From Planotetraspora silvatica (GTDB taxonomy: Bacteria; Actinomycetota; Actinomycetes; Streptosporangiales; Streptosporangiaceae), in the NCBI RefSeq assembly GCF_016863315.1, contig NZ_BOOQ01000019.1, positions 186,001-250,000 of the forward strand: a stretch of DNA of 64,000 nt, given 5' to 3'. The notes beneath the pieces were generated by a model. That model was not told the origin of the DNA. It worked only from the letters and a program-made list of their open reading frames with translations, and searched no databases. Shown piece after piece: positions 20,266 through 59,529 of this stretch; the first letter of the stretch is position 1; the number at the start of each line of letters is the position of its first letter. Both the position numbers and the translations under genes were made by a program.

Positions 20266-21300
20266 TCAGCCAGGCACCCCCGCGAACGACACGGGCGCGG
20301 TCGACCCCCGCACGACCAGTTCGGTGGCCAACTCGACATGGTGGGAGTCGATCTTCTCCCCTGCCGCCAGGCGCAGCGCCGTACGCATCGCGACGCCGCC
20401 CATCTCCCGCAGGGGCTGGCGAACGGTGGTCAGTGGCGGCGAACCCATCCGGGCGACCTGGGTGTCGTCGAAACCCACGATGCTGAGGTCTTCGGGGATG
20501 CGCAGGCCCCGCGCCCGGGCGGCCTCGATGATTCCGAGGGCGGTCTCGTCGCTGCCCGCGAATATCGCCGTCGGGGCCTCCGGCAGGTCGAGCAGCGCCG
20601 CGCCCGACTCCACGCCGTCGTTGTAGAGGAAGTGCCCCTCCCGCACATAGCCGGGGACCACGGGCGCCCCCGCGGCCTCCATGGCGGCCCGGTAGCCGTG
20701 CATGCGCGCCTGGTTGCAGGCCGCGGTCGCCGGGCCGCCCAGGTAGGCGATGCGGCGGTGGCCGAGGGAGAGCAGGTGCTGGGTCGCGGCGAGGCCGCCG
20801 GCGAAGTTGGTCGACCCGACGCTGGTCACGTCGGTGCGCGGCAGGTTGAGCGGGTCGATCACCACCAGCGGCAGGTTGGCCCGCGACAGTGCGGCCAGCT
20901 GCCTGGCGGTCATTTCGGCCGTGACGGCGATCACCGCCCTCCGCCCGGCGGAGACCAGGTCGCGGGCCCACACGGTGGTCCGGTCCGCGCCCCTCCGGAT
21001 GCTCACGACGACCCCGACGCCGACCTCGGCCCCGGCGTCGACGGCGCCCTGGATGATCTCGGTGGAGTACGCGTTGATGTCCGTGTCGAACTCGACCTCG
21101 ATCGTGCCTGCCGCGGTCGCGTCGCCCCGCCGCGGCGACGGAGCGACGTAGTCGTGCTGCAGCAGCAGCGACTGCACCAGTGAGCGTGTCGTCGGTGCGA
21201 CGTCGCTGCGGCCGTTGAGCACCTTGGACACCGTCGCGACGGACACCCCGGCCGAGGCCGCGACGGTGGCCAGAGTGGCGCGCCTAGGATTGACCGGCAT
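20266..21300 (-). CDS. LacI-family regulator of the GH3/ABC locus
   Basis: 344 residues. The HTH and hinge helix are intact: TLATVAASAGVSVATVSKVLNGRSDV (about 9-34). A periplasmic-binding-protein-like sensor follows, with AIFAGSDETALGIIEAARARGL and LSIVGFDDTQVARMGSPPLTTVRQP near the end. Its start lies 17 bases inside the 3' end of the GH3 gene, so it is in the same transcript. It should sense a sugar derived from GH3 substrates and bind the two TCGCAA-type operators that flank the GH3/ABC divergent promoters. Confidence 0.93.
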   Translation of the reverse strand: MPVNPRRATLATVAASAGVSVATVSKVLNGRSDVAPTTRSLVQSLLLQHDYVAPSPRRGDATAAGTIEVEFDTDINAYSTEIIQGAVDAGAEVGVGVVVSIRRGADRTTVWARDLVSAGRRAVIAVTAEMTARQLAALSRANLPLVVIDPLNLPRTDVTSVGSTNFAGGLAATQHLLSLGHRRIAYLGGPATAACNQARMHGYRAAMEAAGAPVVPGYVREGHFLYNDGVESGAALLDLPEAPTAIFAGSDETALGIIEAARARGLRIPEDLSIVGFDDTQVARMGSPPLTTVRQPLREMGGVAMRTALRLAAGEKIDSHHVELATELVVRGSTAPVSFAGVPG

Positions 21301-23764
21301 CTCTTCCCTCCTGCTGCCCGGCGGCTGTGCCAGACGCCGGAACCACGTCCACCGGTGTGACGAGCCGTCTGTCGTGGCCGACGACCCGCAACGGCCCGGT
21401 CAGCCGGACGCCGCCGCGGCACGGAAGGTCGGCCGCCGAAGTGCCGACGAGCACCTCGACGTCTCCGGGCTCGACGATCCGCCGCAGGTCGCGGCCGGTG
21501 AACGCGGTCCGGTCGGCATGCACCTGGAACCGCACCTCCGCGCTCGCACCGGGCTCGAGATGAACTCGCTTGAACCCGGTCAGCTGCTTCACCGGCCGGG
21601 TGACCTGGGCGACGACGTCGCGCAGGTACAGCTGGACGACCTCGTCACCCGCTCGGCCGCCCGTGTTGGTGACGCGGACCGACACGGTGAACTCGCCGTC
21701 GGTGGGCACCTCCGTGCCGTCGACGCACAGGCCGTCGACCTCGAAGGTGGTGTACGAGGCGCCGTACCCGAACGGGAACAGCGGGGTCGGGTCGACGTTG
21801 CTGATGCCGTGGCTGTCGTCCCCCAGCGGCGGCTGCAGGTAGGTGCCCGGCTGCCCGCCGGGCCTGCGGGGGATCCGCACCGGCAGCTTGCCGCCCGGCT
21901 GGACACGGCCGGAAAGGACGCCGGCGATCGCCACCGCTCCCTCCTCACCGGGCATGAACGCCTGAACGAGCGCGGCGGCCCCGGCGTGCACGTCGCCCAG
22001 GGCGTACGGCCGGCCGGAGACGACGACCACGACGACCGGGGTTCCCGTCGCGGCGAGCTCGGCCAGCAGGTCCGCCTGCACACCGGGCAGCCGGAGGTCC
22101 TCGGCGTCACAGCCCTCGCCCGAGGTGCCGTGCCCGAACAGGCCGGCGAGGTCACCCACGACGGCGACGCACAGGTCCGCGTCGCGGGCCGCGGCCGTCG
22201 CCGCGGCGAAGCCCGAGCGGTCCGCGCTCTGAACGTCACAGCCCCGCTCGTGGACGATCTCGGCGTCCGGCAGTTCGGCGCGCAGCGCGTCGAGCACGGT
22301 GGGCGCGGCGATGCCGAGACCGAGGCCGGGGTGGCGGGGCAGGACGTGGTTGGGGAAGGCGTAGCACCCCATGAAGGTGCGCGGGTCGTCCGCGGACGGT
22401 CCGACCACGGCCACGCGATGCGGCGCCGGACGTCCCTCTCCGAGCAGGGGCAGCGCGGTTCCCGCGTCGAGCAGGACGATGGAGCGCTCGGCCATCTCGA
22501 GGGCCAGGGCGCGGTTGGACGGCGAGTCCAGATCCGTCGCGGCGGCCGCGGCCACCGACCCCTCAGGCGTCCAGTCCTCGTCGAGCAGCCCGAGTTGCAC
22601 CTTCTGGGTGAGCAGGCGGCGCGCCGCGCGGTCCACCAGGGACTCCGGCATCTCTCCCCGGCGCACCCGCTCGACCAGATGCTGCCCGAAGCCGAGGGTG
22701 TCGGGGAGTTCGACGTCGACGCCCGCGGTGAGCGCCTGGACACCGGCGTCGTCGGTGTCGGCTGCGACCCCGTGCATCGTCGCGAGGAACGGCACGGCCC
22801 AGTAGTCCGACACGACGGTCCCGGTGAATCCCCACTCGTCGCGCAGCACCTCGGTCAGCAGCCACGGGTCGGCCCCGGCCGGGACACCGTCCACGTCGGA
22901 GTAGGAGCACATCACCGAGCGGGCGCCGCCGAGGGCGACGGCGGCCTCGAACGGCGGCAGGATCATGTCCATGAGCTCCCGGCGCCCCATCGGGACGGGA
23001 CCGTGGTTGCGGGCCGCCCGCGACGCGGAGTACCCGGCGAAGTGCTTGAGGGTGGCGATGATCCCCGTGCTCTCCAGGCCGCGGACGTACGCGGCGCCGA
23101 GCATCGCGACGAGATGGGGGTCCTCACCGATCGTCTCCTCGACCCTCCCCCAGCGGTAGTCGCGGACGACGTCGAGCAGCGGCGACAACCCCTGGTGCAC
23201 CCCCACGGCCCGCATGTCCCGCCCGATGGCGGCGGACATCCGCTCCACCAGATCGGGGTCGAACGTCGCGCCCCATGCGATGGCCGCCGGGTAGACGGTC
23301 GCGCCGTAGGTCGTGAATCCGGTCAGGCACTCCTCGTGGACGAGGGCCGGGATGCCGAGCCGGGACCGCTCGATGACCGCCCGCTGCAGCCGGACGACCT
23401 CCGCGGCGCCTTCCGCCGGGGTCACCGGGCCGCTTCCGAAGACGCGGGTCAGATGACCGAGCCCGAACCGGGCCGCCTCCTCGATGGGGATGGTCCCCGA
23501 GGCCGCGAACACGTCCTGCATCGGTGCGACGTTCAAGGCCCCGGCGGCATCGGCCGCCTCCGTCTCCGGACCGGCGTCGGCACTCGGCTCCGGCGCGCCG
23601 GCCTCCATGTCGTTGCCGACCCACCGGCTGCCGAGCTGGGCGACCTTCTCCTCCAGGGTCATCTCTTCAAGGAGGGCATCGACCCGGGCGGCCACGGGAA
23701 GCGTCGGGTCCTGCCACGAGCGGAGGACCCGGTCCGACGTCGGGGTCCGGTCTAGAGCCGTCAT
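21284..23764 (-). CDS. GH3-family beta-glycosidase
   Basis: 826 residues, no signal peptide, so probably cytosolic. The GH3 (alpha/beta)8 domain contains LKHFAGYSAS (near 239) and the nucleophile Asp320 in VVSDYWAVPFL. The alpha/beta sandwich follows from about 400, and the C-terminus is a fibronectin-III-like domain (GDEVVQLYLRDVVAQVTRPVKQLTGFKRV). Members hydrolyse beta-glucosides, beta-xylosides or related non-reducing-end sugars. ATG 23764 has GAGAG upstream, while the longer TTG frame runs into the promoter. It is divergent from an ABC sugar importer, which probably delivers its substrate, and is co-transcribed with a LacI regulator. Confidence 0.94.
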   Translation of the reverse strand: MTALDRTPTSDRVLRSWQDPTLPVAARVDALLEEMTLEEKVAQLGSRWVGNDMEAGAPEPSADAGPETEAADAAGALNVAPMQDVFAASGTIPIEEAARFGLGHLTRVFGSGPVTPAEGAAEVVRLQRAVIERSRLGIPALVHEECLTGFTTYGATVYPAAIAWGATFDPDLVERMSAAIGRDMRAVGVHQGLSPLLDVVRDYRWGRVEETIGEDPHLVAMLGAAYVRGLESTGIIATLKHFAGYSASRAARNHGPVPMGRRELMDMILPPFEAAVALGGARSVMCSYSDVDGVPAGADPWLLTEVLRDEWGFTGTVVSDYWAVPFLATMHGVAADTDDAGVQALTAGVDVELPDTLGFGQHLVERVRRGEMPESLVDRAARRLLTQKVQLGLLDEDWTPEGSVAAAAATDLDSPSNRALALEMAERSIVLLDAGTALPLLGEGRPAPHRVAVVGPSADDPRTFMGCYAFPNHVLPRHPGLGLGIAAPTVLDALRAELPDAEIVHERGCDVQSADRSGFAAATAAARDADLCVAVVGDLAGLFGHGTSGEGCDAEDLRLPGVQADLLAELAATGTPVVVVVVSGRPYALGDVHAGAAALVQAFMPGEEGAVAIAGVLSGRVQPGGKLPVRIPRRPGGQPGTYLQPPLGDDSHGISNVDPTPLFPFGYGASYTTFEVDGLCVDGTEVPTDGEFTVSVRVTNTGGRAGDEVVQLYLRDVVAQVTRPVKQLTGFKRVHLEPGASAEVRFQVHADRTAFTGRDLRRIVEPGDVEVLVGTSAADLPCRGGVRLTGPLRVVGHDRRLVTPVDVVPASGTAAGQQEGRDAGQS

Positions 23765-23804
23765 GTGCCGCTCTCTTTCAAAGGGGGGTTTCTGTCGCAA
23801 ATTC

Positions 23805-28269: not shown

Positions 28270-29295
28270 TCAGCGGGGGGTGGGCGGCGCGGCCGAGTCT
28301 CTGATGACCAGACGGCACGGCATGCGGTGGACGCCGCTGGTGGCCCGTCCCTCTATGGCGGCGAACAGGTGCTGCGCGGCCGTACGGCCCAGCAGTTCCA
28401 GGTTCATGTCCATGGTGGTCAGCGGTGGCCGCGTCTCCTCCGACAACACCTCCCAGTTGTCGTAGCCGACCACCGCGATGTCGTCGGGCACCCGCCGCCC
28501 CCGTTCGCGCGCCGCCTCGATCAGCCCCGCCGCGATCTGGTCGCTGCCGCAGAAGACGGCGTCCACGTCAGGATCCGCGTTGAGCACGATCTCGGCCGCG
28601 TGCCGTCCCCAGCGCTGGGACCAGGCGCCGTAGACGACGCGGTCTCCCGACAGGGGAAGTCCGGCCGCCTTCAGCGCACCCAGGGCCCCCTCCGCGCGCT
28701 CTCGTGCCGCCGTGTAGTGCGTCGGCCCCGTGACGTGGGCGATCCTCCGGCGCCCCAGCGCGATCAGGTGCCGTACGGCGTCGCCGGAGCCGGCCACGTC
28801 ATCGGGGACGAACGACACGTCCTCCGGGTCGTCGGACGGCGCGTAGGCGTAGACGACCGGGATGGACAGGTCGCGGCTGATGGAGGGCCGCGGGTCGGTG
28901 CTCTCCCCCACGACGATCAGCCCGTCGACCCGCCTGGCGAGCAGCGTGCGCAGGTAGTGCTGCTCGCGGAAGGCGTCACCCCGGGCGTCGCACAGCAAGA
29001 CCGCGGTCTCGCCTGAGCCGAACGCGTCCTCTGCGCCGAGCATGACGGGGATGCCGAATCGGCCGACGCTGTCGCTCGTCAGCAACCCCACCGTCCGGGT
29101 CTGGCCGGTCACCAGACTGCGGGCCAGGGGGTTCGGCTGGAAGGACAGCTCGCGCGCGGCGGCGAACACCCGGTCTCGGGTCTCCGCGCGTACCTGTCCC
29201 CGGCCGTTGAGCGCCTTGGACGCGGTCGCGATCGAAACTCCGGCCAGAGCCGCAACGTCATTGATCGTCACCGCGCGTGGTCGCTCAGAAGGCAT
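28270..29295 (-). CDS. LacI-family regulator, arabinoside locus copy A
   Basis: 341 residues. HTH and hinge: TINDVAALAGVSIATASKALNGRGQV (about 9-34). The sensor domain contains CDARGDAFREQHYLRTLLARRVDG and AVVGYDNWEVLSEETRPPLTTMDM. The C-terminal sensor is very similar along its whole length to that of the regulator at 38933-39982, so the two are probably duplicates sensing the same or related ligands. An operator-like sequence ends 3 bases before its ATG. It is divergent from the lipoprotein/permease/GH127 operon and should repress it. Confidence 0.93.
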   Translation of the reverse strand: MPSERPRAVTINDVAALAGVSIATASKALNGRGQVRAETRDRVFAAARELSFQPNPLARSLVTGQTRTVGLLTSDSVGRFGIPVMLGAEDAFGSGETAVLLCDARGDAFREQHYLRTLLARRVDGLIVVGESTDPRPSISRDLSIPVVYAYAPSDDPEDVSFVPDDVAGSGDAVRHLIALGRRRIAHVTGPTHYTAARERAEGALGALKAAGLPLSGDRVVYGAWSQRWGRHAAEIVLNADPDVDAVFCGSDQIAAGLIEAARERGRRVPDDIAVVGYDNWEVLSEETRPPLTTMDMNLELLGRTAAQHLFAAIEGRATSGVHRMPCRLVIRDSAAPPTPR

Positions 29296-29297
29296 TG

Positions 29298-29310
29298 CGA
29301 AAACCTTTTC
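29298..29310. promoter_or_regulatory. Regulon operator before LacI copy A
   Basis: CGAAAACCTTTTC lies 2 bases upstream of the ATG of the LacI gene (read on the minus strand as GAAAAGGTTTTCG followed by CA and ATG). It matches the core of the full dyad at 38789-38804, indicating autoregulation. Confidence 0.7.
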
Positions 29311-29409
29311 TTCGGGAACATCACTGTCGCCAGAAAGCTCGATCGACCGTTCACGCAGACCATAACGGTCGCGCCGACATCACGGCAACCAGCGGGCCCG
29401 CCGCGCCCA

Positions 29410-29438
29410 TTGACAGCTCATCAGATGACGTTTACGTT
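29410..29438 (+). promoter_or_regulatory. Promoter of the arabinoside importer operon
   Basis: TTGACA (29410-29415), a 17-base spacer and TACGTT (29433-29438) form a good sigma-70-type promoter. The LacI-type operator begins one base after the -10 and covers the predicted start of transcription. Confidence 0.62.
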
Positions 29439-29439
29439 T

Positions 29440-29453
29440 CCGAAAACCTTTTA
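29440..29453. promoter_or_regulatory. Regulon operator at the importer promoter
   Basis: CCGAAAACCTTTTA, one mismatch-prone end short of the full dyad at 38789-38804. It directly follows the -10 of the importer promoter, so a bound repressor would block RNA polymerase. Confidence 0.72.
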
Positions 29454-29563
29454 TTTTGCTTCACGCCGGTGCGATCGCAAGCAGTTGCTTGGTTGGGGCG
29501 CGAGCACCGGGCATCCGCCGCCGTCATGGACGGCAACCCCCCCAGAAGTGCAAGGAGCAGGAC

Positions 29564-30841
29564 ATGGCAAAAAGGTTTTCTGCGGCGATAGCCGCTGGGC
29601 TCTTGGTGACAGCGCTGGCCGCGTGCGGCGGCGGCGAGCAGACGGAGGGCGGAGCGTCCGGAGCCCCCGACAGCGGGACGACGATCACGATGTGGACCCG
29701 CGCCGCCACGCAGGCCCAGAGCCAGCGGCTCGTGGACGCCTACAACAAGTCCCACAAGAACCAGGTCAAGCTGACCGTGATCCCGATCGACAACTACCAG
29801 CCGCGCATCGCCGCCGCGGCCGGCGCCGGGCAGCTTCCCGACATCTTCGCCGCCGACGTGATCTTCGTGCCGAACTACACGTCGCAGGGGCTGTACCTGG
29901 ACATCACCGACCGGATCGCGAAGCTGCCCTTCAAGGACTCGCTCGCCGCCTCGCACATGAGGCTCGGCACGTACGAGAACCGGATGTACACCCTCCCGCA
30001 CACGCTCGACCTGTCGGTCTGGTTCTGGAACAAGGACCTCTACAAGAAGGCCGGGCTCGACCCGGAGAAGGGCCCGACGACCCTGAAGGAGTTCGCCGCG
30101 CAGGCGACCACGGTCCAGGACAAGCTCGGCAAGGACGGCAAGGTCCACGGCACGTTCTTCGGCGGCAACTGCGGCGGCTGCTACGTCTTCACCTTCTGGC
30201 CCTCGGTCTGGGCCGCCGGCGGCCAGGTCATGAACGAGCAGGGCACCAAGTCGCTGGTGAACCAGACGCCGATGACCGACGTCTTCCAGATCTACAAGGA
30301 CCTGTACGCCAAGGGCATCAGTGGGCCGACCACGAAGGAGGAGCAAGGCGCGACCTGGACGGGCTTCTTCCCCAAGGGGGAGATCGGCGTCATGCCCATG
30401 CCGTCCACGACGCTCGGCTCCATGCCCGCTGACATGAACATCGGCGTCACCCCGATCGCCGGCCCCGACGGCGGCGAGTCCACGTTCGTCGGCGGCGACT
30501 CGGTCGGCATCTCCGCCACCACCAAGCACGCGGACGCGGCCTGGGACTTCCTGTCCTGGACTGTCGGCGACGAAGCCCAGGTCGAGGTCCTCGCGAAGAA
30601 CAAGGACGTGCTGGCCAGGACCGACCTCGCCAGCAACAAGTACTCCGAGGCCGACCCCCGCGTCGTCTTGATCAACTCCCTGGTCGCCAAGGGGCAGACG
30701 CCGTACGCCCTGCGCTTCGGCCAGACCTTCAACGACCCGCAGGGTCCGTGGCTGCGCTTCGCCCGTGAGGCCGTCTTCGGTGATCCCGCCAAGCTGGCCG
30801 AACTCAACGTCGCCGTCGACAAGTCGCTCGCCCAGTCATGA
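29564..30841 (+). CDS. ABC sugar transporter substrate-binding lipoprotein
   Basis: 425 residues. A Sec lipoprotein signal (AKRFSAAIAAGLLVTALAAC, lipobox LAAC, Cys22) is followed by a family-1 solute-binding protein: TITMWTRAATQAQSQRLVDAYN, AAGAGQLPDIFAADVIFVPNY, and GFFPKGEIGVMPMPSTTLG. ATG 29564 has AAGGAG upstream. It would bind an arabino- or related oligosaccharide at the outer face of the membrane. It leads the operon with two permeases and the GH127 enzyme; no ATPase gene is nearby. Confidence 0.94.
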   Translation: MAKRFSAAIAAGLLVTALAACGGGEQTEGGASGAPDSGTTITMWTRAATQAQSQRLVDAYNKSHKNQVKLTVIPIDNYQPRIAAAAGAGQLPDIFAADVIFVPNYTSQGLYLDITDRIAKLPFKDSLAASHMRLGTYENRMYTLPHTLDLSVWFWNKDLYKKAGLDPEKGPTTLKEFAAQATTVQDKLGKDGKVHGTFFGGNCGGCYVFTFWPSVWAAGGQVMNEQGTKSLVNQTPMTDVFQIYKDLYAKGISGPTTKEEQGATWTGFFPKGEIGVMPMPSTTLGSMPADMNIGVTPIAGPDGGESTFVGGDSVGISATTKHADAAWDFLSWTVGDEAQVEVLAKNKDVLARTDLASNKYSEADPRVVLINSLVAKGQTPYALRFGQTFNDPQGPWLRFAREAVFGDPAKLAELNVAVDKSLAQS

Positions 30842-31755
30842 CCCGACTCGCCTCGCCCCGCGCGGGCCGCGACCTTGACCGGGTCGCGGCCCGCGCGGCC
30901 CACGCCCGCGGCCGTCCCCGCTCGCGTAGATACATCGGGATGCTCTACGCGGCTCCGACCGCCGTCATCGTCGGGGTGCTGTTCCTCGCCCCCCTCGCGC
31001 TCGTCGTCTGGATGTCGTTGAACAAGTGGCCGCTGCTGGGCCAGCCGAGGTTCAACGCGCCGGAGAACTACGCCAAGATCTCCGATGACCCGTTGTTCGT
31101 GGACTCGGTGTTCTTCACGCTGAAGTACACCCTGATCATCACCGTCCTGCTGTCGGCGGTGGCGCTCGGCCTCGCCCTGCTCGTGCAGAACCGCAGGCCA
31201 GGGGTCACCTTCTTCCGCACGGCCTTCTTCCTGCCGGGTGCGGTCGGCTTCGCGGCGGCCTCGCTGCTGTTCTACGGCATGCTCAATCCCGACTTCGGGC
31301 CCCTCGGGTTCATGGACGTGAAGTGGATCGGCACGCCGAACATGGCGCTGTTCTCCACGATCGCGCTGGTCCTGTGGAGGTTCGCCGGGTTCAACATGCT
31401 GATCCTGCTCACCGGTCTGCAGGCGATCCCGGTCCAGGTCTACGAGGCCGCCAGGACCGACGGGGCGAGCAGGTGGCAGACCTTCACCAAGATCACTCTG
31501 CCGTTGCTGCGCCCGACGATCGCGCTGATGCTGATCCTGAGCATCACCGGCTCGCTGCTGGCCTTCGACCAGTTCTTCATCTTCACCAACGGCGGCCCCG
31601 ACAACAGCACGGTGTCCATGGTCATGGTCATCTACCGCAACGCGTTCTTCCGCTTCGACCTCGGCGGCGCCGCGGCGCTGTCGGTCGTGCTGCTGGCAGC
31701 GCTGGTCGCGCTGAACGCCCTGCAGTTGCGGGTTCTCAGGGGAGGCGACAAATGA
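30838..31755 (+). CDS. ABC sugar permease (MalF-like)
   Basis: 305 residues with six helices after a basic N-terminal tail. The EAA loop reads YEAARTDGASRWQTFTKITLPLL. ATG 30838 overlaps the lipoprotein stop by 4 bases, so it is translationally coupled. It pairs with the next permease. Confidence 0.92.
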   Translation: MTRLASPRAGRDLDRVAARAAHARGRPRSRRYIGMLYAAPTAVIVGVLFLAPLALVVWMSLNKWPLLGQPRFNAPENYAKISDDPLFVDSVFFTLKYTLIITVLLSAVALGLALLVQNRRPGVTFFRTAFFLPGAVGFAAASLLFYGMLNPDFGPLGFMDVKWIGTPNMALFSTIALVLWRFAGFNMLILLTGLQAIPVQVYEAARTDGASRWQTFTKITLPLLRPTIALMLILSITGSLLAFDQFFIFTNGGPDNSTVSMVMVIYRNAFFRFDLGGAAALSVVLLAALVALNALQLRVLRGGDK

Positions 31756-32558
31756 GGCGCACCGGCTCGTATTCCGCCACGTCGGCGCTGGCCGTCCTGT
31801 TCCTGTTCCCGCTGCTCTGGAGCGGGTGGTCGTCCCTGAAGGGGCAGCCGGGCAGCGGGCAGACCAACGGGTACGGCTTCGGCAACTACACGAGGATGGC
31901 CCACTTCGGCGAGGGGCTGACCTCCTACCTGACCAACAGCCTGCTGGTGTCGGCGATGACCGTCGCGGGAACGCTGCTGGTCTCTGCGCTGGGGGGCTAC
32001 GCGTTCGCCAGGTTCGCCTTCCCCGGCAAGAACCTGCTGTTCCTGGCGACGCTGGCGATCCTCATGGTTCCGTACGCGACGATCCTGATCCCGCTCTATG
32101 TCCTGCTGGGCAAGATCGGCCTGCAGAACTCCCTGGTCGGGCTCAGCCTCGTCTTCGTGATGTTCCAGTTGCCGTTCGCGCTCTACATGATGCGCAACTC
32201 GTTCGAAGCGGTGCCGCGGGAGCTGGACGAGTCGGCGATGGTCGACGGATGCGGCACCTTCCGCGCCTTCACCCTGATCCTGCTCCCCGCGGTACGGCCG
32301 GGCCTGGTCACCGTCGGACTGTTCGCCTTCCTCGCTTCGTGGAACGACTTCCTCGCCCCCCTGATCCTGCTCAACGACGGGGCCAGCTTCCCGCTCCCGG
32401 TGGCCGTCTGGAGCATGACGCAGCGCACGTTCGGGGCGATCGACTACGGGATGCTGGAAGCCGGGGTCATGGTCATGGCCATTCCCTGTCTGCTCCTGTT
32501 CATCGTGCTCCAGCGCTACTACGTGCGCGGATTCATGTCAGGCGCGCTGCGCGGCTAG
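31752..32558 (+). CDS. ABC sugar permease (MalG-like)
   Basis: 268 residues starting at ATG 31752, a 4-base overlap with the previous stop, with GGAGG just upstream. The EAA loop is visible as LDESAMVDGCGTFRAFTLILLP, and six helices are predicted. A cysteine replaces the usual alanine in the DGA motif, a minor variation. It completes the importer. Confidence 0.92.
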   Translation: MRRTGSYSATSALAVLFLFPLLWSGWSSLKGQPGSGQTNGYGFGNYTRMAHFGEGLTSYLTNSLLVSAMTVAGTLLVSALGGYAFARFAFPGKNLLFLATLAILMVPYATILIPLYVLLGKIGLQNSLVGLSLVFVMFQLPFALYMMRNSFEAVPRELDESAMVDGCGTFRAFTLILLPAVRPGLVTVGLFAFLASWNDFLAPLILLNDGASFPLPVAVWSMTQRTFGAIDYGMLEAGVMVMAIPCLLLFIVLQRYYVRGFMSGALRG

Positions 32559-32596
32559 CGGCTTCTCTTCGCATGAGAACTCTGAAAAGGACAAAT

Positions 32597-34555
32597 GTGA
32601 CTGGCATCGTCGAAAGACACACCTCCCCTGTCGCCCCCGTCGTCCCGCGCGGCGGGGTGTTCACCCCGCTCGGTCTTGATGAATCCCGGCTCGCCGGAGG
32701 ATTCTGGGGGGAGCGCCAGGAGCTCAACCATGACGCGATCATCCCGCACGCTCTCCATTGGCTGGAGCGGGCGGGCTGGGTGGGGAACTTCGACGACGCG
32801 GCCTCCGGCCGGCCGTACGAGCACCGGGGCATGGAGTTCGCCGACTCGGAGATATACAAGATCATCGAGGCGATCTCCTGGGATCGGGCGAGAACCGGCC
32901 CGGGCGGCGCCGACCTCCACGCCCACCTCGACGCCGCGCTCGACGGGCTCGTCGACCGGCTGGCGGCGGCGCAGGACGCCGACGGCTACCTTCACACGCT
33001 GTTCGGCCGGGCCTGGCAACGCCCTCGCTACTCGGACCTCTCCTGGGGGCACGAGCTCTACTGTTTCGGGCATCTCCTCCAGTCGGCGGTCGCCAACGCG
33101 CGTGCGGGGGCCAACGCCAAGTACCTCCAGGTGGCGACGGCGCTGGCCGATCACGTCTGCGTGATGTTCGGGGAGAACGGGCTGCGCATGGTGTGCGGTC
33201 ACGCCGAGATCGAGCTCGGCCTGGTCGAGCTCTACCGGCTCACCGGCGTGCGCCGCTACCTGGACCAGGCGGCCCTGTTCATCGATCGGCGCGGCGCTGG
33301 AACGCTCCCTCGCATCGAGTACGGCAGCGCCTACGCCCAGGACGACATGCCGGTGCGCGAGGCCACCGTGCTGCGCGGCCACGTCGTGCGGGCCCTCTAT
33401 CTGTCGGCCGGCGCCACGGACGTCGCCGTGGAGACCGGCGACGCGGAACTGCTGCGTGTGCTCGAGACCCAGTGGGCCAACACCGTCGCGACCCGTGTCT
33501 ACGTCACGGGCGGGATGGGATCCCACCACAACGACGAGGCGTTCGGCCTCGACTACGTCCTGCCGCCTGATCGTTCCTACTGCGAGACGTGCGCGGGCGT
33601 CGCCTCCATCATGTTCAGCTGGCGGCTTCTCCTGGCCACCGGGAAGAGCCGGTATGCCGACCTGATCGAGCGCACGCTGTACAACGTCCTGGCCGCGTCT
33701 CCAGCGCGCGACGGCAGGGCCTTCTTCTACGCCAACACGCTGCACCAGCGTTCGGTGAGCGTGCCAGCGCCGGTCAACGCCGACGGCCTGTGCCTGAGAG
33801 GCGCGAGCAGCCGGCGCGAGGCCTGGTTCGAGGCCTCCTGCTGTCCGACCAACCTGGCCAGGACTCTGGCGAGCCTCGGCGCGCTCTGGGCGACCAAGGA
33901 CGCCGAGGGCGTGCAGATCCACCAGTACGGCGGCGCGTCGGTCGACACGGTCCTGGCGGACGGACGACGTGTCGGCCTCGACATGGAGACCGAGTTCCCG
34001 CACGCCGGCACGGTCACGATCACGATCCGGGAGTCCCCCGGCACCCCGTGGACGCTCTCGTTGCGCGTCCCCGAATGGGCGGAGGGCGCGAGCGTGTCGG
34101 TGAACGGGGTCGCGGAGGAGGCGGCGCCGGGGGTCGCCTCGGTCACGAGGCCGTTCGCCGCCGGGGACACGGTCGTGCTGGAGTTGCCGATCGAGGCGCG
34201 GTTCGTCTTCCCGCACCCTCGCGTCGACGCGGTCAGGGGCTGTGTCGCGGTCCAGCGCGGCCCCGTCGTCTACGCCCTGGAGTCGGTCGACCTCCCCCAT
34301 GGCTGGAGCACGGAGGCGACGGTCGTCGACGTGTCGAAACCACCCATGTCGGACAGCGACGGCGTGCGCGTCCACCTCTCCTCGGCCGACTCCCCCGCGC
34401 GCGACTTCCCCTACTCGGTCAGCGCCGCGGACGTCGCCCCCGACCTCGCGGCCTCGGCCGAAGTGCCGCTGACGCCCTATCACGACTGGGCGAACAGGGG
34501 CCCCTCCACCATGCGCGTCTGGATCCCCACGAGTCCCGTCGGCACGGCCGAGTGA
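32597..34555 (+). CDS. GH127 beta-L-arabinofuranosidase
   Basis: 652 residues from GTG 32597, which has AAAAGGAC seven bases upstream; ATG 32573 is a weaker alternative. No signal peptide, so cytosolic. The (alpha/alpha)6 barrel carries the complete zinc-thiolate centre of the bifidobacterial HypBA1 enzyme: Glu330 and Cys332 in YCETCA, and the Cys415-Cys416 pair in EASCCPTN, the first of which would be the nucleophile. Glu314 (HHNDEAFG) aligns with the HypBA1 acid/base. It should remove terminal beta-L-arabinofuranose from imported oligosaccharides. It is the last gene of the importer operon and is followed by a perfect hairpin. Confidence 0.93.
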   Translation: MTGIVERHTSPVAPVVPRGGVFTPLGLDESRLAGGFWGERQELNHDAIIPHALHWLERAGWVGNFDDAASGRPYEHRGMEFADSEIYKIIEAISWDRARTGPGGADLHAHLDAALDGLVDRLAAAQDADGYLHTLFGRAWQRPRYSDLSWGHELYCFGHLLQSAVANARAGANAKYLQVATALADHVCVMFGENGLRMVCGHAEIELGLVELYRLTGVRRYLDQAALFIDRRGAGTLPRIEYGSAYAQDDMPVREATVLRGHVVRALYLSAGATDVAVETGDAELLRVLETQWANTVATRVYVTGGMGSHHNDEAFGLDYVLPPDRSYCETCAGVASIMFSWRLLLATGKSRYADLIERTLYNVLAASPARDGRAFFYANTLHQRSVSVPAPVNADGLCLRGASSRREAWFEASCCPTNLARTLASLGALWATKDAEGVQIHQYGGASVDTVLADGRRVGLDMETEFPHAGTVTITIRESPGTPWTLSLRVPEWAEGASVSVNGVAEEAAPGVASVTRPFAAGDTVVLELPIEARFVFPHPRVDAVRGCVAVQRGPVVYALESVDLPHGWSTEATVVDVSKPPMSDSDGVRVHLSSADSPARDFPYSVSAADVAPDLAASAEVPLTPYHDWANRGPSTMRVWIPTSPVGTAE

Positions 34556-34576
34556 TCGGTCGCACGGAATCGGGGG

Positions 34577-34600
34577 TCGCGATGGCGTGAGCCATCGCGA
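34577..34600 (+). terminator. Perfect 10-bp hairpin after the GH127 gene
   Basis: TCGCGATGGC (34577-34586) and GCCATCGCGA (34591-34600) pair exactly around a GTGA tetraloop, 21 bases after the GH127 stop. It should terminate the importer operon before the epimerase gene. Confidence 0.82.
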
Positions 34601-34824
34601 GATTGAACGGCCGGCCTCCGTGAGCCGCAGACGGGTCCCTTGCGCAGCCCGTCGAGCATGGTTCGCGGATCGACCGGTTCGGACGCCCGGGGCCGGGTTC
34701 GCCTCTGAGCCCCGCCCCGGGCCGCCGTCCGCCCGGGATCGGTTCCGCCGCGCGGCCGACAAATGCCTGGCGACCAGGCCTGGCGACAAGACGGAGATCT
34801 TGCCTGCCCCTAGGCTCCCTACCC

Positions 34825-35754
34825 ATGCGCATACTTGTGACCGGCGGAGCCGGGTTCATCGGCTCCCACCTGACCGACGCCTTCCTGGCCAGGGGTGACG
34901 AGGTCGCCGTGCTCGACGACCTGTCCTCCGGCAGGCTGACCCGGCTGGACCCCCGGGTGGCGGCGCACAGGGCCTCCGTCGCCGACCCCGGCGCGCTGGC
35001 CGCGGTCGTCGCCCGGGTCCGGCCCCAGCTGATCTGCCACCTCGCGGCGCAGATCGACGTGCGGGCCTCGGTCGCCGATCCGGCGGGCGACGCCCAGACC
35101 AACGTCATCGGCACCATCAACGTGCTGGAGGCGGCGCGCGTCGCCGGAGCACGGGTGCTGTTCGCCTCAACCGGCGGCGCCCTGTACGGCAAGGACGCGG
35201 TGATCCCCTCGGACGAGGACCAGCGGCCCGAGCCCGAGGCGCCGTACGGCACGGCCAAATACTGCGCCGAGCAGTACATCGGCCTGTCCAACCGCCTCCA
35301 CGGGACCACCCACTCGGTGCTCCGGCTCGGCAACGTCTACGGACCGCGTCAGGACCCGGCCGGAGAGGCGGGAGTGGTCGCCATCTTCTGCGGCAAGGCC
35401 ATGCGGGAGGAGCGGCCCGTCATCTACGGCGACGGCACCCAGACGCGGGACTACGTCTACGTCGGCGACGTCGCCACGGCCTTCCTCGCCGCGGCCGACT
35501 CCTCCATCGCGGGGGTGTGGAACATCGGCACCGGCGTCGAGACCAGCATCCTCACTCTGGCCGACGTCATCGGCCAGGTCACGGGCCGGAGCATTGAGCC
35601 GGAGTTCGGGCCCGCGCGGCCCGGGGAGCTCCGGCGCAGCGCGCTCGATGTGGCACGCGTCGCCGGTCAGCTGGGTTGGAAGGCGGCCACCTCGCTGTCC
35701 GAGGGCGTCGCGAGCACCTTCGCGTGGGTGCGAGACGGCGGGCCCGACAGGTAG
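34825..35754 (+). CDS. NAD-dependent nucleotide-sugar epimerase (GalE-like extended SDR)
   Basis: 309 residues. The NAD site is MRILVTGGAGFIGSHL at the very start, the catalytic YGTAK lysine is near residue 140-144, and the C-terminal part has the typical LRLGNVYGPRQDP and GDGTQTRDYVYVGDV of UDP-sugar 4-epimerases. Substrate could be UDP-glucose/galactose or UDP-arabinose/xylose. Placement between two arabinoside loci favours a role in pentose or galactose metabolism, but this is inference. It is convergent with the secreted glycosidase gene across a perfect hairpin. Confidence 0.9.
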   Translation: MRILVTGGAGFIGSHLTDAFLARGDEVAVLDDLSSGRLTRLDPRVAAHRASVADPGALAAVVARVRPQLICHLAAQIDVRASVADPAGDAQTNVIGTINVLEAARVAGARVLFASTGGALYGKDAVIPSDEDQRPEPEAPYGTAKYCAEQYIGLSNRLHGTTHSVLRLGNVYGPRQDPAGEAGVVAIFCGKAMREERPVIYGDGTQTRDYVYVGDVATAFLAAADSSIAGVWNIGTGVETSILTLADVIGQVTGRSIEPEFGPARPGELRRSALDVARVAGQLGWKAATSLSEGVASTFAWVRDGGPDR

Positions 35755-35778
35755 AGCTCGGACCGCACGCGGAGTGGA

Positions 35779-35809
35779 GTGGCGGAGGAGGGGTGACCTC
35801 CTCCGCCAC
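35779..35809. terminator. Perfect 13-bp bidirectional hairpin
   Basis: GTGGCGGAGGAGG (35779-35791) pairs exactly with CCTCCTCCGCCAC (35797-35809) around GGTGA. It lies 25 bases after the epimerase stop and 20 bases beyond the glycosidase stop, between convergent genes. Confidence 0.85.
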
Positions 35810-35829
35810 GGGAGCGGACCGCCGTTACC

Positions 35830-38688
35830 TCAGCGGTTGTAGATCTTGATTTCGGTCAGGCCGGACTTCGCACCGGAGGCGTTGGTCATCAGCACTCGCA
35901 CCCGCTGCGCGCTGACCGGCGTGAACCGGACCACGTTGTAGTTGCCCTGCGGTGTGCTCGGTGTCTTGACCTGGGCCGCGGCGTTGGTCCAGGTGCTGCC
36001 GTTGAGGTACTGGATCTGGTAGGCGGACGGCGGGCGGTAGGTGGCGCTCGCCGGACGGCTGTCCTTGAAGTAGAGCCGGACCTCGTCGAGGGTCTTGGCG
36101 CTGCCGAAGTTCACCTCGTACCAGTCCTGGGCATTGGGCGAGCCGCCCGCACCCCAGTAGGGCTCGTTGACGGGGTAGCCGTCCACCGCGCCGCCGGTGC
36201 TGGTGCCGCCGCCGGTGTAGGAGGCCGACACGGTGGCGCCCTGGGCGAGGTTGGTCAGGTTGGCGGTGAGGTCGACTCCGGCCTTGGCGAGTTCGTCGAC
36301 GACGCGCGCGTCGGACTGGACGACCTGTTGCGGCGACCGGAGCCCCGCGATCGCGGTGCTGAAGGCCACGGTCCCTGCGGTGCCGCTGAAGGTGACCGCG
36401 CCGGTGTCGGGGTTCCACACGAAGGGCACGAGCTGGTTCACCGTCGCGGCACGGGTGCCGTTGATGTAGATGGAGTATCCCTGGGGAACCCCGGGGTACT
36501 TGACCACGCCGTCGGCCGGGTCGTCCCAGACGATGGACAGGTCGGCGTTGCGGTAGCGGATGTTGTTGACCGCGAAGTTGGACCAGCCGATGTTGATCGG
36601 CGAGAGCTCCACCCTGTTGTCGTTGCGGGGGCGCAGCCCGGCGACGTCCTCGATCAGCGTCCAGTTGCTGCTGCCGAGGATGTTGTGGTGGATCCACGAG
36701 CGGTAGGTGATGGACGAGCCGTTCCAGTTGGCCCAGAACTCGTTGGCGTCGGGCCACTGGGTGTTGCCCCCGACGTACTGGGCCCAGGTGTTCCAGTAGA
36801 GCAGCTTCTTGTAGTCGTCGGTGGTGATGTAGGAGCTGGGGTAGTTGCGCAGAGCCGACGAGAAGAGCCGGAACTGCACGGTGGAGTTGATCGTGGAGAA
36901 GTTGTTGCTGCCCGGGTTGCCGGCCGCTGCCGCCGCCGCCTTGTCCTTCTGGTTGGCGGTGTAGAACGGGAAGACCGGGTATTCGGCCGGGTCGGTGAAC
37001 AGCCGCAGCGCCTCGCGGTAGGTCGCGGTGTTGGGCATCAGCCCCACGGCGTACGGATAGAAGTTGTTGATCTCCTTCCACGGGTCGAGCGTGTTGGTCG
37101 ACACGTGGCGGTGTTGCAGCACGCGCGCGGTCGGGTTCCACAGCACGTTGACGACCGCGTTCTGCACGCGGGTGGCGAGCGTGCGCATCTCGGCCGCCTT
37201 GGTGGTGTTGCCGATCGCGTCGTACGCCTGCGCCGCGGCGAGGGCCCCGCTGTAGACGTACGCGGACTCGGTGCGATCGAGGTTGCCGCTGCGCCAGTGG
37301 AAGGAGACCGCGTCGGCGTCGTTGCCGGTCAGCGCGCCCCAGTCGTACTCGATCAGGCCGTTGTTGTCGTGGTCGTAGAAGCTGAGCTGGCCCTTCGCGT
37401 CGCCTTCCGCGTACTTGGCGAGGTTGGCCGCGATGCCGGGCTGACCACCGTGGATCTGGTAGCTGCGCCAGGCCGCCTCACCGATGTACTGCGTGTAGCT
37501 GTTCGACCAGTTGGCCGGGTCCCCGGGGTTGTCGAGGAACCTGCCGCCCTTGGAGACCTGACCGACCGAGAGCCAGTCGCCGTAGGCGTACAGCGGAGTG
37601 CGGAGGTACTTGAGATCGTCGATGTGCATCGGCTGGGTGAGCACGATGGCGTTGTTGTACCCGAGCGCGCCCTCGACCGAGGTGGGGAACTGGTAGGTCT
37701 GGCCGGGCAGGTTGGCGTCGAGGTTGTTGAACCTCATCAGCCACCACCGGTAGTAGTAGTTCTTCTTGATGGCCGGCTCAGGCGAGTCGAAGTACGGGAT
37801 GTTCTGCGCCCACCACAGGTTGTAGGCCCGCACGTGCGTGGCGAACGCGGTGGCGTTGGTGTAGCCCTTGTACGCGTTGTACTCGGTCAGCGACTCGGGG
37901 ATCTCGTTGGTGACGAAACCCATCACGACCTTGGCGGTGACGGTGGCGCCCGCGGCGACGGTGACCGAGCGGTTGAGTCCCCCGCTGGTGACGGTGAACC
38001 CGTCGCCGGACAGACGCGGGGACAAAGTGGTGAGGTTGTTGAAGGCGCTGCGGCTGCCGGTCAGCTCGTTGCCGCTGCCCGAGGTCGCGTACGGCGAGGT
38101 CGCCCGCAGTTGCAGGGTCGTCGCGGAGGTGCCCGTGTTGGTGATCGAGAAGTTCGCCACCGCGACGTTGTTCTGAGTGATGAACTTGGTCTGCTCGACG
38201 CGGACCGCACCACTCGTGTGCACGCTCTTGAAGTAGCTCGGCGCCTGCCAGCGCTGGGAGACCTGCTCGGTGAAGGTGCCGGGCGTGATCGCCACGGTGA
38301 ACGCGCTCTGGTTGCTGATGCTCTCGATGTAGGCCACGTTGCCGGCGAAGCCGAGCGTCCCGGGGTTGTGGGTCTTCATGAACAGCGCCCGGCCGCGTGT
38401 CATCAGGATGCCGCCGTCGGCGTCGGACGGATCGCTGCCGGAGCGGCTGAGCAGCCGGTCGATCCAGAAGTTGGTGCCTGCGCTCTCCGAGTCGTAGATG
38501 GCCTGCATCATGTTGCCGGTGTTGTAGGCGACCGGCGGCGCGGGTACGGCGGGGCCGCTGAAGGTCGGGTATCCGATGGTCTGGGCCGCGGACGCTTGCC
38601 GTCCTGGGGCCACGAGCGCGCTGGCGACAAGGCAGAGTATGGCCACCATGACCAATGATCTCGACCTGGAGCGGGCGTACACCAGCAT
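35830..38688 (-). CDS. Secreted (alpha/alpha)6-barrel glycoside hydrolase with F5/8-type-C domain
   Basis: 952 residues from ATG 38688, preceded by a perfect AAGGAGGTGA. The signal peptide covers about 1-35 (RQASAA cleavage). Domains: N-terminal beta-sandwich (about 90-265), an (alpha/alpha)6 barrel of the MGH1/GH63-like group (about 300-700; YYYRWWLMRFNNLD, QFPTSVEGALGYNNAIVL, YDHDNNGLIEYDW), a second beta-sandwich (about 700-785) and a C-terminal F5/8-type-C carbohydrate-binding domain (about 812-950). I cannot assign a CAZy family. Context suggests release of arabinose-containing oligosaccharides, like the extracellular HypBA2 (GH121) in bifidobacteria. Its promoter carries the full regulon operator. 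Confidence 0.82.
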   Translation of the reverse strand: MLVYARSRSRSLVMVAILCLVASALVAPGRQASAAQTIGYPTFSGPAVPAPPVAYNTGNMMQAIYDSESAGTNFWIDRLLSRSGSDPSDADGGILMTRGRALFMKTHNPGTLGFAGNVAYIESISNQSAFTVAITPGTFTEQVSQRWQAPSYFKSVHTSGAVRVEQTKFITQNNVAVANFSITNTGTSATTLQLRATSPYATSGSGNELTGSRSAFNNLTTLSPRLSGDGFTVTSGGLNRSVTVAAGATVTAKVVMGFVTNEIPESLTEYNAYKGYTNATAFATHVRAYNLWWAQNIPYFDSPEPAIKKNYYYRWWLMRFNNLDANLPGQTYQFPTSVEGALGYNNAIVLTQPMHIDDLKYLRTPLYAYGDWLSVGQVSKGGRFLDNPGDPANWSNSYTQYIGEAAWRSYQIHGGQPGIAANLAKYAEGDAKGQLSFYDHDNNGLIEYDWGALTGNDADAVSFHWRSGNLDRTESAYVYSGALAAAQAYDAIGNTTKAAEMRTLATRVQNAVVNVLWNPTARVLQHRHVSTNTLDPWKEINNFYPYAVGLMPNTATYREALRLFTDPAEYPVFPFYTANQKDKAAAAAAGNPGSNNFSTINSTVQFRLFSSALRNYPSSYITTDDYKKLLYWNTWAQYVGGNTQWPDANEFWANWNGSSITYRSWIHHNILGSSNWTLIEDVAGLRPRNDNRVELSPINIGWSNFAVNNIRYRNADLSIVWDDPADGVVKYPGVPQGYSIYINGTRAATVNQLVPFVWNPDTGAVTFSGTAGTVAFSTAIAGLRSPQQVVQSDARVVDELAKAGVDLTANLTNLAQGATVSASYTGGGTSTGGAVDGYPVNEPYWGAGGSPNAQDWYEVNFGSAKTLDEVRLYFKDSRPASATYRPPSAYQIQYLNGSTWTNAAAQVKTPSTPQGNYNVVRFTPVSAQRVRVLMTNASGAKSGLTEIKIYNR

Positions 38689-38788
38689 CGCGTCACCTCC
38701 TTCGGGGTGGGACTGGCGGGGGGGTGCGAAGTAGCGAGGGATCCGTGCCGACGCGCCCGGGATGCGCCGCTTCCGTTCACGATCGGCT

Positions 38789-38804
38789 CCGAAAAGGTTT
38801 TCGG
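38789..38804. promoter_or_regulatory. Full regulon operator CCGAAAAGGTTTTCGG at the secreted glycosidase promoter
   Basis: Symmetrical except for the central GG. On the minus strand it reads CCGAAAACCTTTTCGG and directly follows a TAACGTTG element (-10-like TAACGT, 38807-38812), the same layout as TACGTTT-CCGAAAACC at 29433-29448. It represents the best copy of the motif. Confidence 0.8.
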
Positions 38805-38908
38805 CAACGTTAAATTTCGATAACGAGAGCCCGGCGACGGGGTGTTGTATCGGACGGATCTTCGACATAAGCTCAGGACACGCGCCCCTCCCGACTTTGT
38901 CGGCATCT

Positions 38909-38933
38909 CGAAACGCTTTCGAAAGGTTTTCGG
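38909..38933. promoter_or_regulatory. Double regulon operator before LacI copy B
   Basis: Two overlapping dyads: CGAAACGCTTTCG (38909-38921) and CGAAAGGTTTTCGG (38920-38933). The second one ends on the first base of the GTG start codon of the LacI copy B gene, mirroring the operator position at copy A. Confidence 0.72.
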
Positions 38934-39982
38934 TGGGCCGACGTCGTTCCGAACTGGTGACCCTGGCCGACGTGGCCAAACTGGCCGGGGTTTCCGTCGC
39001 GACGGCGTCCAAGGCGCTCAACGGACGGCCTGAGGTCGCGGACGCGACCCGGTCGCGGGTGCGCCACGCCGCCGCGGAGTTGGCCTTCCATCCCAACCCG
39101 CTCGCCCGCGGGCTGATCGGCGGCCGCACCCGCACCATCGGACTGCTCACCGACGAGCTCGGCGGGCGCTTCTCCATGCCGGTGCTGCTCGGCGTGGAGA
39201 ACGCCCTGGGCAACGAGGAGATGTCGGTGGTGCTCTGCGACGCGCGCGGCGACTCCATCCGCCGCCAGCACTACATCCGCACCCTGGTGGCCAGGCAGGT
39301 CGACGGATTCATCATCCTCGGCGAGAGCAACGACCTGCGCCCGTCGCTGACCCGCGACATCCCGGTGCCGGTGGTGTACGTGTACGGGGAATCCAGCGAC
39401 CCCGGGGATCTGTCGATCCTCGCCGACGACGAGGGCGGCGCACGCCTCGCCGCCGAGCACCTCATATCCCTACAAAGGCGTCACGTCGGGCACATCACCG
39501 GCCCAGAGCTGTACCGTGCCGCGCGCGACCGGGCGGCCGCTCTGCGCCGCGCGCTGCACGACTCCGGTCTGGACCTGGCCGGTGGAGAACCCTTCCACGG
39601 CGAATGGTCACGCCGCTGGGGCCGGCATGCGGCGCACATGCTGCTCACCGCCGACCCCGACGTGGACGCCATCTTCTGCGGCAACGACCAGATCGCGGAC
39701 GGCGCCTGCGAGGCGCTGACGTACCTCGGGCGGCGCATCCCCGACGACGTCGCGGTGGTGGGCTACGACAACTGGGAGACGCTGGCGGCCGACTGCCGTC
39801 CGCCGCTGACCACCATCGACCTGAATCTGGAGCAGTTGGGCGCCATCGCGGTGGAGCATCTGTCCGCGGCCCTGGACGGACACCGCACCACCGGCGTCAT
39901 CCGCCATCCGGGACGGCTGGTGGTCCGCGAATCGACCGGCCCGCCGTCCCTTCGCCCGTCGCCGGCCGCCACACGAGGCTGA
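38933..39982 (+). CDS. LacI-family regulator, arabinoside locus copy B
   Basis: 349 residues from GTG 38933 (GTG 38957 is a shorter option). HTH and hinge: TLADVAKLAGVSVATASKALNGRPEV. The sensor domain repeats the copy A blocks: CDARGDSIRRQHYIRTLVARQVDG, GYDNWETLAADCRPPLTTIDL, and GEWSRRWGRHAAHMLLTADPDVDAIFCGNDQIA. It is divergent from the secreted glycosidase, whose promoter has the operator shared with copy A. The two regulators are therefore likely to act on one regulon, with a common ligand or with division of labour. Confidence 0.94.
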   Translation: MGRRRSELVTLADVAKLAGVSVATASKALNGRPEVADATRSRVRHAAAELAFHPNPLARGLIGGRTRTIGLLTDELGGRFSMPVLLGVENALGNEEMSVVLCDARGDSIRRQHYIRTLVARQVDGFIILGESNDLRPSLTRDIPVPVVYVYGESSDPGDLSILADDEGGARLAAEHLISLQRRHVGHITGPELYRAARDRAAALRRALHDSGLDLAGGEPFHGEWSRRWGRHAAHMLLTADPDVDAIFCGNDQIADGACEALTYLGRRIPDDVAVVGYDNWETLAADCRPPLTTIDLNLEQLGAIAVEHLSAALDGHRTTGVIRHPGRLVVRESTGPPSLRPSPAATRG

Positions 39983-59169: not shown

Positions 59170-59529
59170 GTGGATGGCGAGGATGTCACAGGGCGGCTGC
59201 GGCACATCTGTCTGTCATTGCCGGAGGCGGTCGAGAAGCCGTTCGGCGGGCACACGGCGCCGTCGTTCCGCATACGCGACAAGCTTTTCCTGATGACCGG
59301 CGAGGACGGCGCTTCCATGACGTTCAAGGCAGGTCCGGGTGTGCAGGAGGCTCTGGTCTCGTCGGATCCCGAACGCTTCTTCGTCCCGGCATACGTGGGA
59401 GCCAAGGGCTGGGTGGGGGCTCGGCTCGACGTCGAGCAGGACTGGGACGAGATCGCCGGGCTGGTCGAAGACAGTTACCGGTTGATCGCGCCGAAGCGGC
59501 TCGTCGCGCTGCTCAACCGCCCGGTGTGA
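59170..59529 (+). CDS. MmcQ/YjbR-family DNA-binding-like protein
   Basis: 119 residues from GTG 59170. The family's pattern is visible: CLSLPEAVEKPFGGHTAPSFRIRDKLFLMTGEDGASMTFKAG, then VPAYVGAKGWVGARLDVEQDWDEIAGLVEDSYRLIAPKRL. YjbR-like proteins have a CyaY-type fold; their molecular role is not settled. It is convergent with the desaturase gene. Confidence 0.88.
   Translation: MDGEDVTGRLRHICLSLPEAVEKPFGGHTAPSFRIRDKLFLMTGEDGASMTFKAGPGVQEALVSSDPERFFVPAYVGAKGWVGARLDVEQDWDEIAGLVEDSYRLIAPKRLVALLNRPV

Follow-up and report, generated by a model that had tools for sequence, protein, structure and literature searches.

The stretch analyzed here, hereafter the window, is a 64,000-nucleotide segment of the genome of the soil actinobacterium Planotetraspora silvatica (C19:186001-250000, within 8.66 Mb in 117 contigs), and between positions 28270 and 39982 it carries two LacI-family regulator genes, LacI-1 and LacI-2, which flank a sugar transport operon and two glycoside hydrolase (GH) genes. 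Short near-palindromic sites recur in the intergenic DNA of this locus. From the conservation of these sites and the likeness of the two recognition helices, we consider it probable that the two LacI repressors, which belong to different clades, control the local beta-L-arabino-oligosaccharide locus and recognize the same distal operator. The gene order is LacI-1 (minus); binding protein, two permeases, GH127 and an NAD-epimerase-like gene (plus); GH121 (minus); and LacI-2 (plus). The genes and putative control elements are listed below.

28270-29295, minus strand: LacI-1 gene (341 amino acids, helix IATASKALNGR; Pfam PF00356 and Peripla_BP_3; in a tree clade of 45 rows)
29298-29311, minus strand: putative LacI-1 start-proximal operator AGAAAAGGTTTTCG, 14 nt, including the likely Shine-Dalgarno (SD) string AAAAGG, 2 bp from the ATG
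29410-29438, plus strand: putative transport-operon promoter TTGACA-N17-TACGTT, read by eye and from conservation
29441-29454, plus strand: putative distal operator, directly 3' of the binding-protein promoter's -10-like block
29564-30841, plus strand: ATP-binding cassette (ABC) sugar-binding protein gene (best PDB relative 6lce, E 1e-95)
29568-29581, plus strand: possible accessory operator-like match in codons 2-6 of the binding-protein gene, 2 mismatches
30838-31755, plus strand: ABC permease A gene
31752-32558, plus strand: ABC permease B gene
32555-34555, plus strand: gene for a GH127 beta-L-arabinofuranosidase-like enzyme (Pfam PF07944; PDB 4qjy, 3wkw)
34825-35754, plus strand: NAD-epimerase-like gene, between GH127 and GH121
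35830-38688, minus strand: gene for a GH121 HypBA2-like beta-L-arabinobiosidase with a C-terminal F5/8-type domain (NF041578, PDB 6m5a)
38790-38803, no strand assigned: perfect putative distal operator CGAAAAGGTTTTCG, between GH121 and LacI-2, directly after the TAACGTTG block of GH121
38909-38932, plus strand: putative LacI-2 start-proximal site, a pair of 13-nt variants that overlap, the downstream one reaching up to the GTG and including the likely SD string GAAAGG
38933-39982, plus strand: LacI-2 gene (349 amino acids when counted from the chosen GTG start; helix VATASKALNGR)

The original prediction had placed two sugar loci here, but the gene content is that of one beta-arabino-oligosaccharide locus. 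For the GH121 protein, the solved beta-L-arabinobiosidase 6m5a is a match at E 1e-184, and the score against the HypBA2 model NF041578 is 818 bits, under the 3200-bit cut-off of that much longer model; a class-wide search of 394 genomes gave no match to the HypBA2 model above its NCBIfam cut-off. The GH127 product resembles solved beta-L-arabinofuranosidases (4qjy, 3wkw), and its sole NCBIfam match is to aceric acid hydrolase, at 357 bits far under the 950-bit cut-off. The closest relative of the binding protein, 6lce, we take to be a beta-arabinobiose-binding protein. Because GH121, GH127 and the binding protein match solved relatives of beta-L-arabino type, the locus most likely constitutes a single pathway for beta-L-arabino-oligosaccharide use. 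The closest named relatives are other Planotetraspora species, with GH121 identities of 99% (P. mira), 96% (P. phitsanulokensis) and 95% (P. kaengkrachanensis). The NAD-epimerase-like gene is present in P. mira (G104), is matched only over short pieces in G125 and not at all in G077, and may be a passenger given how patchily relatives keep it. Elsewhere in the window, a third LacI gene (helix VATVSK, 20266-21300, minus strand) adjoins a GH3 gene (21284-23800, minus strand), and the window scan found no shared-operator match at this pair (20266-23800) within two mismatches.

The operator core is CGAAAASSTTTTCG, a 14-bp string of the form CGAAAA-SS-TTTTCG, and a match with up to two mismatches was counted as a site. 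The exact 16-mer is present once in the window (38789-38804, minus strand), and the mismatches to CGAAAASSTTTTCG number 0 at 38790-38803, 1 at 29298-29311, and 2 at both 29441-29454 and 29568-29581, with one further window match within two mismatches at 59277. All four motif stretches that had been described were recovered in place, the fourth as 13-bp variants and not as the 14-mer: no 14-mer lies within two mismatches at 38909-38932, which holds CGAAACGCTTTCG (38909-38921) and CGAAAGGTTTTCG (38920-38932). It was also correctly seen that the first and last sites precede the LacI starts, with the spacings listed above, and that the middle two follow -10-like elements (TACGTTT and TAACGTTG), blocks that recur in relatives. 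The start of LacI-2 was taken as the GTG at 38933, the longest frame opening at 38762; the two 13-bp variants before it are 11 bp apart, and their upstream copy is imperfectly kept in Planotetraspora relatives. The intragenic match at 29568, absent from the earlier description, was seen only in the closest of 53 relatives examined and may be coincidence.

As had been proposed, chance is a poor explanation for this placement. The two intergenic regions hold three sites at up to two mismatches, a number that none of 20,000 dinucleotide shuffles reached (no site in 19,448 shuffles, one in 547, two in 5, three in none). A whole-genome motif scan found exact copies of NRAAAAGGNTTTCR at two places, both at the locus. 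With up to one mismatch, exact copies included, NRAAAAGGNTTTCR occurs 26 times against 13 for a reversed control, and the looser CGAAAASSTTTTCG at up to two mismatches gives counts of 65 per strand, with 18 for the control. On these counts we take most of the weak genome-wide matches to be background. Two outside near-palindromes that were examined (L005 and L015) adjoin aldo/keto-reductase-like and OsmC-like genes, named by eye, so a wider regulon in this genome was set aside and the regulon is treated as local; other weak matches were checked solely for overlap with open frames of high GC at third codon positions. Several GAAAAGGG[CT]TTCG matches resemble, by eye, codons of cold-shock proteins. 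Across 200 genomes of the family, GAAAAGGNTTTCG is exact at 118 places in 79 genomes (13 for the reversed control); many take the form GAAAAGGGTTTCG and come from genomes in which the family search with LacI-1, scoring at most 10 candidates per genome, gave no match, and not all need be operators.

Both LacI proteins combine a PF00356 helix-turn-helix (HTH) with a PF13377 sensor domain and are 58-59% identical to each other. The recognition helix [IV]ATASK is found in LacI-1 and LacI-2 only among the 33 LacI HTHs found in this genome (150 of 193 candidates scored). A search with LacI-1 across the 200 family genomes, in which at most 10 LacI candidates per genome were scored, gave a match at E <= 1e-60 in 64. 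The fetched loci yielded 101 LacI rows, or 100 once a repeat (L094) was removed, and by the residue at the second position of the recognition helix these comprise 53 A/S-type, 43 G-type and 4 others that were not counted. A maximum-likelihood tree gives three groups whose branching order is unresolved: LacI-1 with 45 rows and support 93/88, LacI-2 with 8 rows and 100/93, and the G-type with 43 rows and 87/99. When named genomes are added, a quick tree recovers LacI-1 and LacI-2 along with 30 Streptomyces-type members, of which 29 are from Streptomyces and one is from Amorphoplanes; the order of these groups is weakly supported. The two window regulators thus belong to separate clades. Recognition-helix positions 24, 26, 27, 28 and 30 are invariant across LacI-1, LacI-2 and the Streptomyces-type (61, 26 and 30 rows, some species being present twice); at position 23 every LacI-1 and Streptomyces-type row has A, as do 85% of the LacI-2 rows. 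LacI-1 and LacI-2 differ at 21 positions that are more than 85% conserved within each clade, and only two of these fall in the first 60 residues.

The distal operator follows this recognition helix across relatives. Within 400 nt upstream of the 53 A/S-type LacIs, GAAAAGGNTTTCG is exact in 32, within one mismatch in 51 and within two in all 53, against shuffled means of 0.0, 0.0 and 0.55. For the 43 G-type sister-clade rows the corresponding counts are 1, 3 and 21, against shuffled means of 0.0, 0.05 and 0.65. Among named GH121 loci, of which the best 80 of 388 were examined and some belong to species already in the family set, a LacI at least 45% identical is present in 58, and none was found in the stretch in 22. 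The 63 LacIs of these loci comprise 60 A-type and 3 G-type proteins, and the core within one mismatch, at up to 330 nt, accompanies 58 of the 60 and none of the 3. After deduplication, all 94 A-type LacIs (44 LacI-1, 20 LacI-2 and 30 Streptomyces-type, sorted by identity rather than by tree) have a distal site within two mismatches. Upstream of G-type genes GAATAGGTTTTC is exact in 12 of 43, compared with 0 of 53 for the A-type; at one mismatch the A-type leads instead, 22 of 53 to 16 of 43, since its core differs from GAATAGGTTTTC by a single mismatch. Other members of the G-type clade carry sites of the GAAAACG[AG]TTGCC or GCAAAG type. A change of recognition helix thus seems to go along with a change of operator, in a comparison that mixes ancestry and function, and the G-type clade is a possible natural switch of specificity. 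G-type loci (L142-L144, L148, L149, L153, L155-L156, L159-L160, L182-L184, L187-L190 and others) often lie beside another GH127.

Overlapping recognition is also suggested by genomes in which one regulator was found and the other was not, either among at most 10 scored candidates per genome or in stretches of up to 10 kb on each side. LacI-1 occurs in many family genomes in which LacI-2 was not detected, and LacI-2 occurs in stretches of Catellatospora, Hamadaea, Dactylosporangium and others in which LacI-1 was not found, where its neighbors are GH127, transporter and GH121 genes; either regulator is accompanied by the same distal core. Some of the LacI-2-only loci carry a further, distant LacI of 36-40% identity. 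The Streptomyces-type LacIs, mostly situated between GH121 and transporter genes, share this core as well. Both clades were found together in the window, P. mira, P. phitsanulokensis, P. kaengkrachanensis, Sphaerisporangium corydalis and G154, and in the same-genus G022 only LacI-1 was found. The GH121 match in G154 (C3:69230-71955, L083) is in two pieces, which suggests a frameshift or an assembly error. In G084 the single LacI match found belongs to the LacI-1 clade and lies on a separate contig from the transport operon and GH121; GAAAAGGTTTTCG stands upstream of the binding-protein operon there and GAAAAGGATTTCG upstream of GH121, and the LacI-1 gene itself has weaker sites with two mismatches. 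In G060 the single match found is of the LacI-2 clade; it is divergent from a cluster of binding-protein, permease and GH127 genes and has the related site CGAAATCGTTTTCG. Taken together, G084 and G060 show each LacI type, as found, alone beside the kind of gene that neighbors the other type in the window. Since footprinting across relatives, the matching helices and the presence of either LacI alone with the same operator point in one direction, overlapping recognition is likely, and we infer that both LacIs act on one set of genes. The single regulon of the original prediction is therefore supported in part, and its fourth site is a clade-specific 13-bp variant.

The sites, their placement and conservation, the helix match and the gene content suggest a mechanism of which the promoters, binding by both proteins, repression, inducer and autoregulation are predicted. 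Both repressors would recognize the distal operator GAAAAGGNTTTCG, which has inverted-repeat arms. When sugar is absent, dimers of either LacI would sit just downstream of the -10 element and block initiation at the transport/GH127 operon and at GH121. Sites over the ribosome-binding site and start codon of the regulator genes would provide negative autoregulation of each LacI, and the repressors would let go once the system sets free or takes up an arabinose-containing sugar. The position of the distal sites directly after -10-like blocks fits repression through blocked initiation and is the reason for preferring repression over activation. Upstream of the gene divergent from LacI-1, in chosen LacI-1-group rows, TTGACA is present in 9 of 13 and TACGTT in 11 of 13, followed by CCGAAAACCTTT in 13 of 13; upstream of GH121, the block CCGAAAAGSTTTTCGGCAACGTT is found in 6 of 6 rows, with a GC center in L093. 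A strict promoter scan reported no promoter in these regions. A conserved, slightly variable block at 38804-38830 (minus strand GTTAYCGAAA..TTAACGTT) lies upstream of the GH121 operator and has no clear -35 element.

The start-proximal sites, by contrast with the distal core, segregate by clade. The nearest site within two mismatches is the 14-nt form in 40 of 44 LacI-1 genes (13-nt form in 2, a tie in 1, none in 1) and the 13-nt form in 17 of 20 LacI-2 genes (none in 3), and no proximal site within two mismatches was found in any of 30 Streptomyces-type genes. In 41 of 44 LacI-1 genes a possible start codon follows the GG of the proximal site at a distance of 6-12 nt, and 8 of these genes carry a further SD-like string. 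The same spacing is seen in 13 of 20 LacI-2 genes, 2 of them with a further string; the remaining 7 LacI-2 genes have a separate SD-like string in 4 cases and none in 3. Streptomyces-type genes have no proximal GG (0 of 30) and a separate GGAG-type SD in 29 of 30. We infer that the putative proximal operator doubles as a ribosome-binding site. Because these sites are clade-specific and often include the apparent ribosome-binding site, autoregulation may be private to each regulator and the two autoregulatory sites may not be interchangeable.

Several observations weigh against a shared regulon. At the 29441 site the right arm (..TTTTAT) is weak, and position 23 varies between A and S, being S in LacI-2 of P. 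phitsanulokensis and P. kaengkrachanensis. The LacI rows are related, so that the site counts are not independent, and the cases of one regulator without the other rest on limited candidate scoring per genome. A site with up to one arm mismatch is present in the 1.3 kb upstream of only 7 of 30 family GH121 genes (L048-L077), and GH121 may thus often be no direct target; in several genomes GH121 is placed downstream of LacI-1, where it may come under LacI-1's own sites. The clade-specific proximal spacing suggests partial separation of the two regulators, and shared operators could also reflect inheritance without cross-binding.

Alternative explanations differ mainly in how far the two regulators are taken to be separate. 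It is possible, although we hold it only tentatively, that the shared operator responds to two inducers, a special case of the common-operator reading in which the regulators sense different sugars, such as arabinobiose for one and a longer or shorter relative for the other, and release requires both or is graded. The clade-differing positions 74, 75, 129, 133 and usually 150 would presumably lie near the expected sugar pocket, and position 198, the presumed counterpart of the sugar-contacting LacI residue R197, carries R in every one of the 26 LacI-2 rows against 32 of 61 LacI-1 rows (17 of 30 Streptomyces-type), though both window proteins have R. The LacI-1 figure means that the pocket is not uniform even within that clade. 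As evidence against two inducers, every row of the three clades retains W225 and D279 and only one row lacks Q253, and the pocket mapping uses presumed LacI numbering and no structure. A broader proposal, which we regard as rather doubtful, is that long-separate repressor lineages, each in charge of this pathway on its own in other genomes, met at this locus, share its distal operators, keep private SD-doubling sites of 14 and 13 nt, and integrate two sugar signals through diverged sensors.

It is unlikely that the locus instead holds two local circuits, with LacI-1 acting on the transport/GH127 operon and itself, LacI-2 acting on GH121 and itself, and operators alike through a common ancestor. 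Such circuits would account for the segregation of proximal sites by clade, for the position of each regulator beside its own targets, and for the fact that 19 of the 21 clade differences lie beyond the first 60 residues. They are harder to reconcile with a distal core identical in both clades and with matching recognition helices; moreover, GH121 has an operator in G084, where LacI-1 is the sole regulator found, and LacI-2 is the sole one found in G060, beside the transporter operon, and in stretches of Micromonosporaceae. That the start-codon sites are mere purine-rich ribosome-binding sites resembling the operator is improbable: the position of the GG would suit it, but the right arm TTTC(G) is usually kept as well, the Streptomyces-type genes manage with a separate SD and no proximal site, and the distal sites would be left unexplained. 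Use of the sites by some other regulator is scarcely credible, as nothing direct favors it beyond a two-mismatch match (G000:C45:56563) about 200 nt upstream of a LacI HTH with a different helix (C45:56780), probably by chance, whereas the only two exact sites in 8.66 Mb are both at the locus and the sites track the A/S-type helix, being rare upstream of the G-type sister clade.

Control of one operator set by two LacI-family proteins has precedent. GalR and GalS of E. coli are LacI-family paralogues with a common operator set and unlinked genes. The combination of a matching recognition helix and a common operator sequence, as in paralogous LacI pairs, is present here; unlike GalR/GalS, both regulators flank a single locus. 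In gene content the locus resembles the BauR1 regulons of Bifidobacterium, in which bauR accompanies hypBA1, hypBA2 and bauABC: that study describes a local LacI gene beside GH127, GH121 and an ABC transporter, with predicted palindromic sites, BauR1 occurring in 9 genomes and BauR2 in 5, and 14 genomes having a BauR in all (PMC5928203). It differs from them in that two regulators of different clades flank one locus. Among titles and abstracts in literature searches, none concerned such a regulon outside Bifidobacterium, and 13-mer operator strings sought in full texts pointed to a single paper, on CcpA in Streptococcus. In Bifidobacterium breve, operator sites of AraQ and MalR1 were located in the same 47-48-bp segments by electrophoretic mobility shift assay, and the present system is similar, on sequence evidence, in having two distinct LacI-type proteins with common operator segments; AraQ and MalR1 govern central carbon metabolism and are partly thought to be activators, whereas the set here is small and local and its regulators are presumed repressors (PMC6882875).

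General features of LacI-family operators, as reported by a comparative survey, are even palindromes (1251 of 1303 motifs) with a CG center in 1173, another center in 49 and a degenerate one in 29, spacing that rarely varies within an orthologous group, and more than 75% of sites within -140 to -30 (PMC4052901). The distal sites conform in being even palindromes near promoters, here read by eye, of local sugar genes. They depart in having a GG/CC center, a CG center being usual in the family but not strictly defining; CG appears among the best distal sites of the A-type relatives L272 and L150. The start-proximal sites lie closer than the usual range, and the 13/14-nt spacing difference occurs within one set, the LacI-2 proximal site being odd at 13 nt. 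These sites offer a clear operator code, open to testing, for LacI proteins of one subfamily that occurs in Streptomyces, Streptosporangiaceae and Micromonosporaceae and that gene content ties to plant beta-arabino-oligosaccharides, and a natural set, with A or G at one helix position and 13- or 14-nt spacing, for asking how paralogous repressors keep or lose cross-recognition. The arrangement as a whole is well preserved and fairly ordinary, of the GalR/GalS or AraQ/MalR1 kind, and its rarer traits are the GG center, a putative operator that covers the SD, and a spacing that differs by clade.

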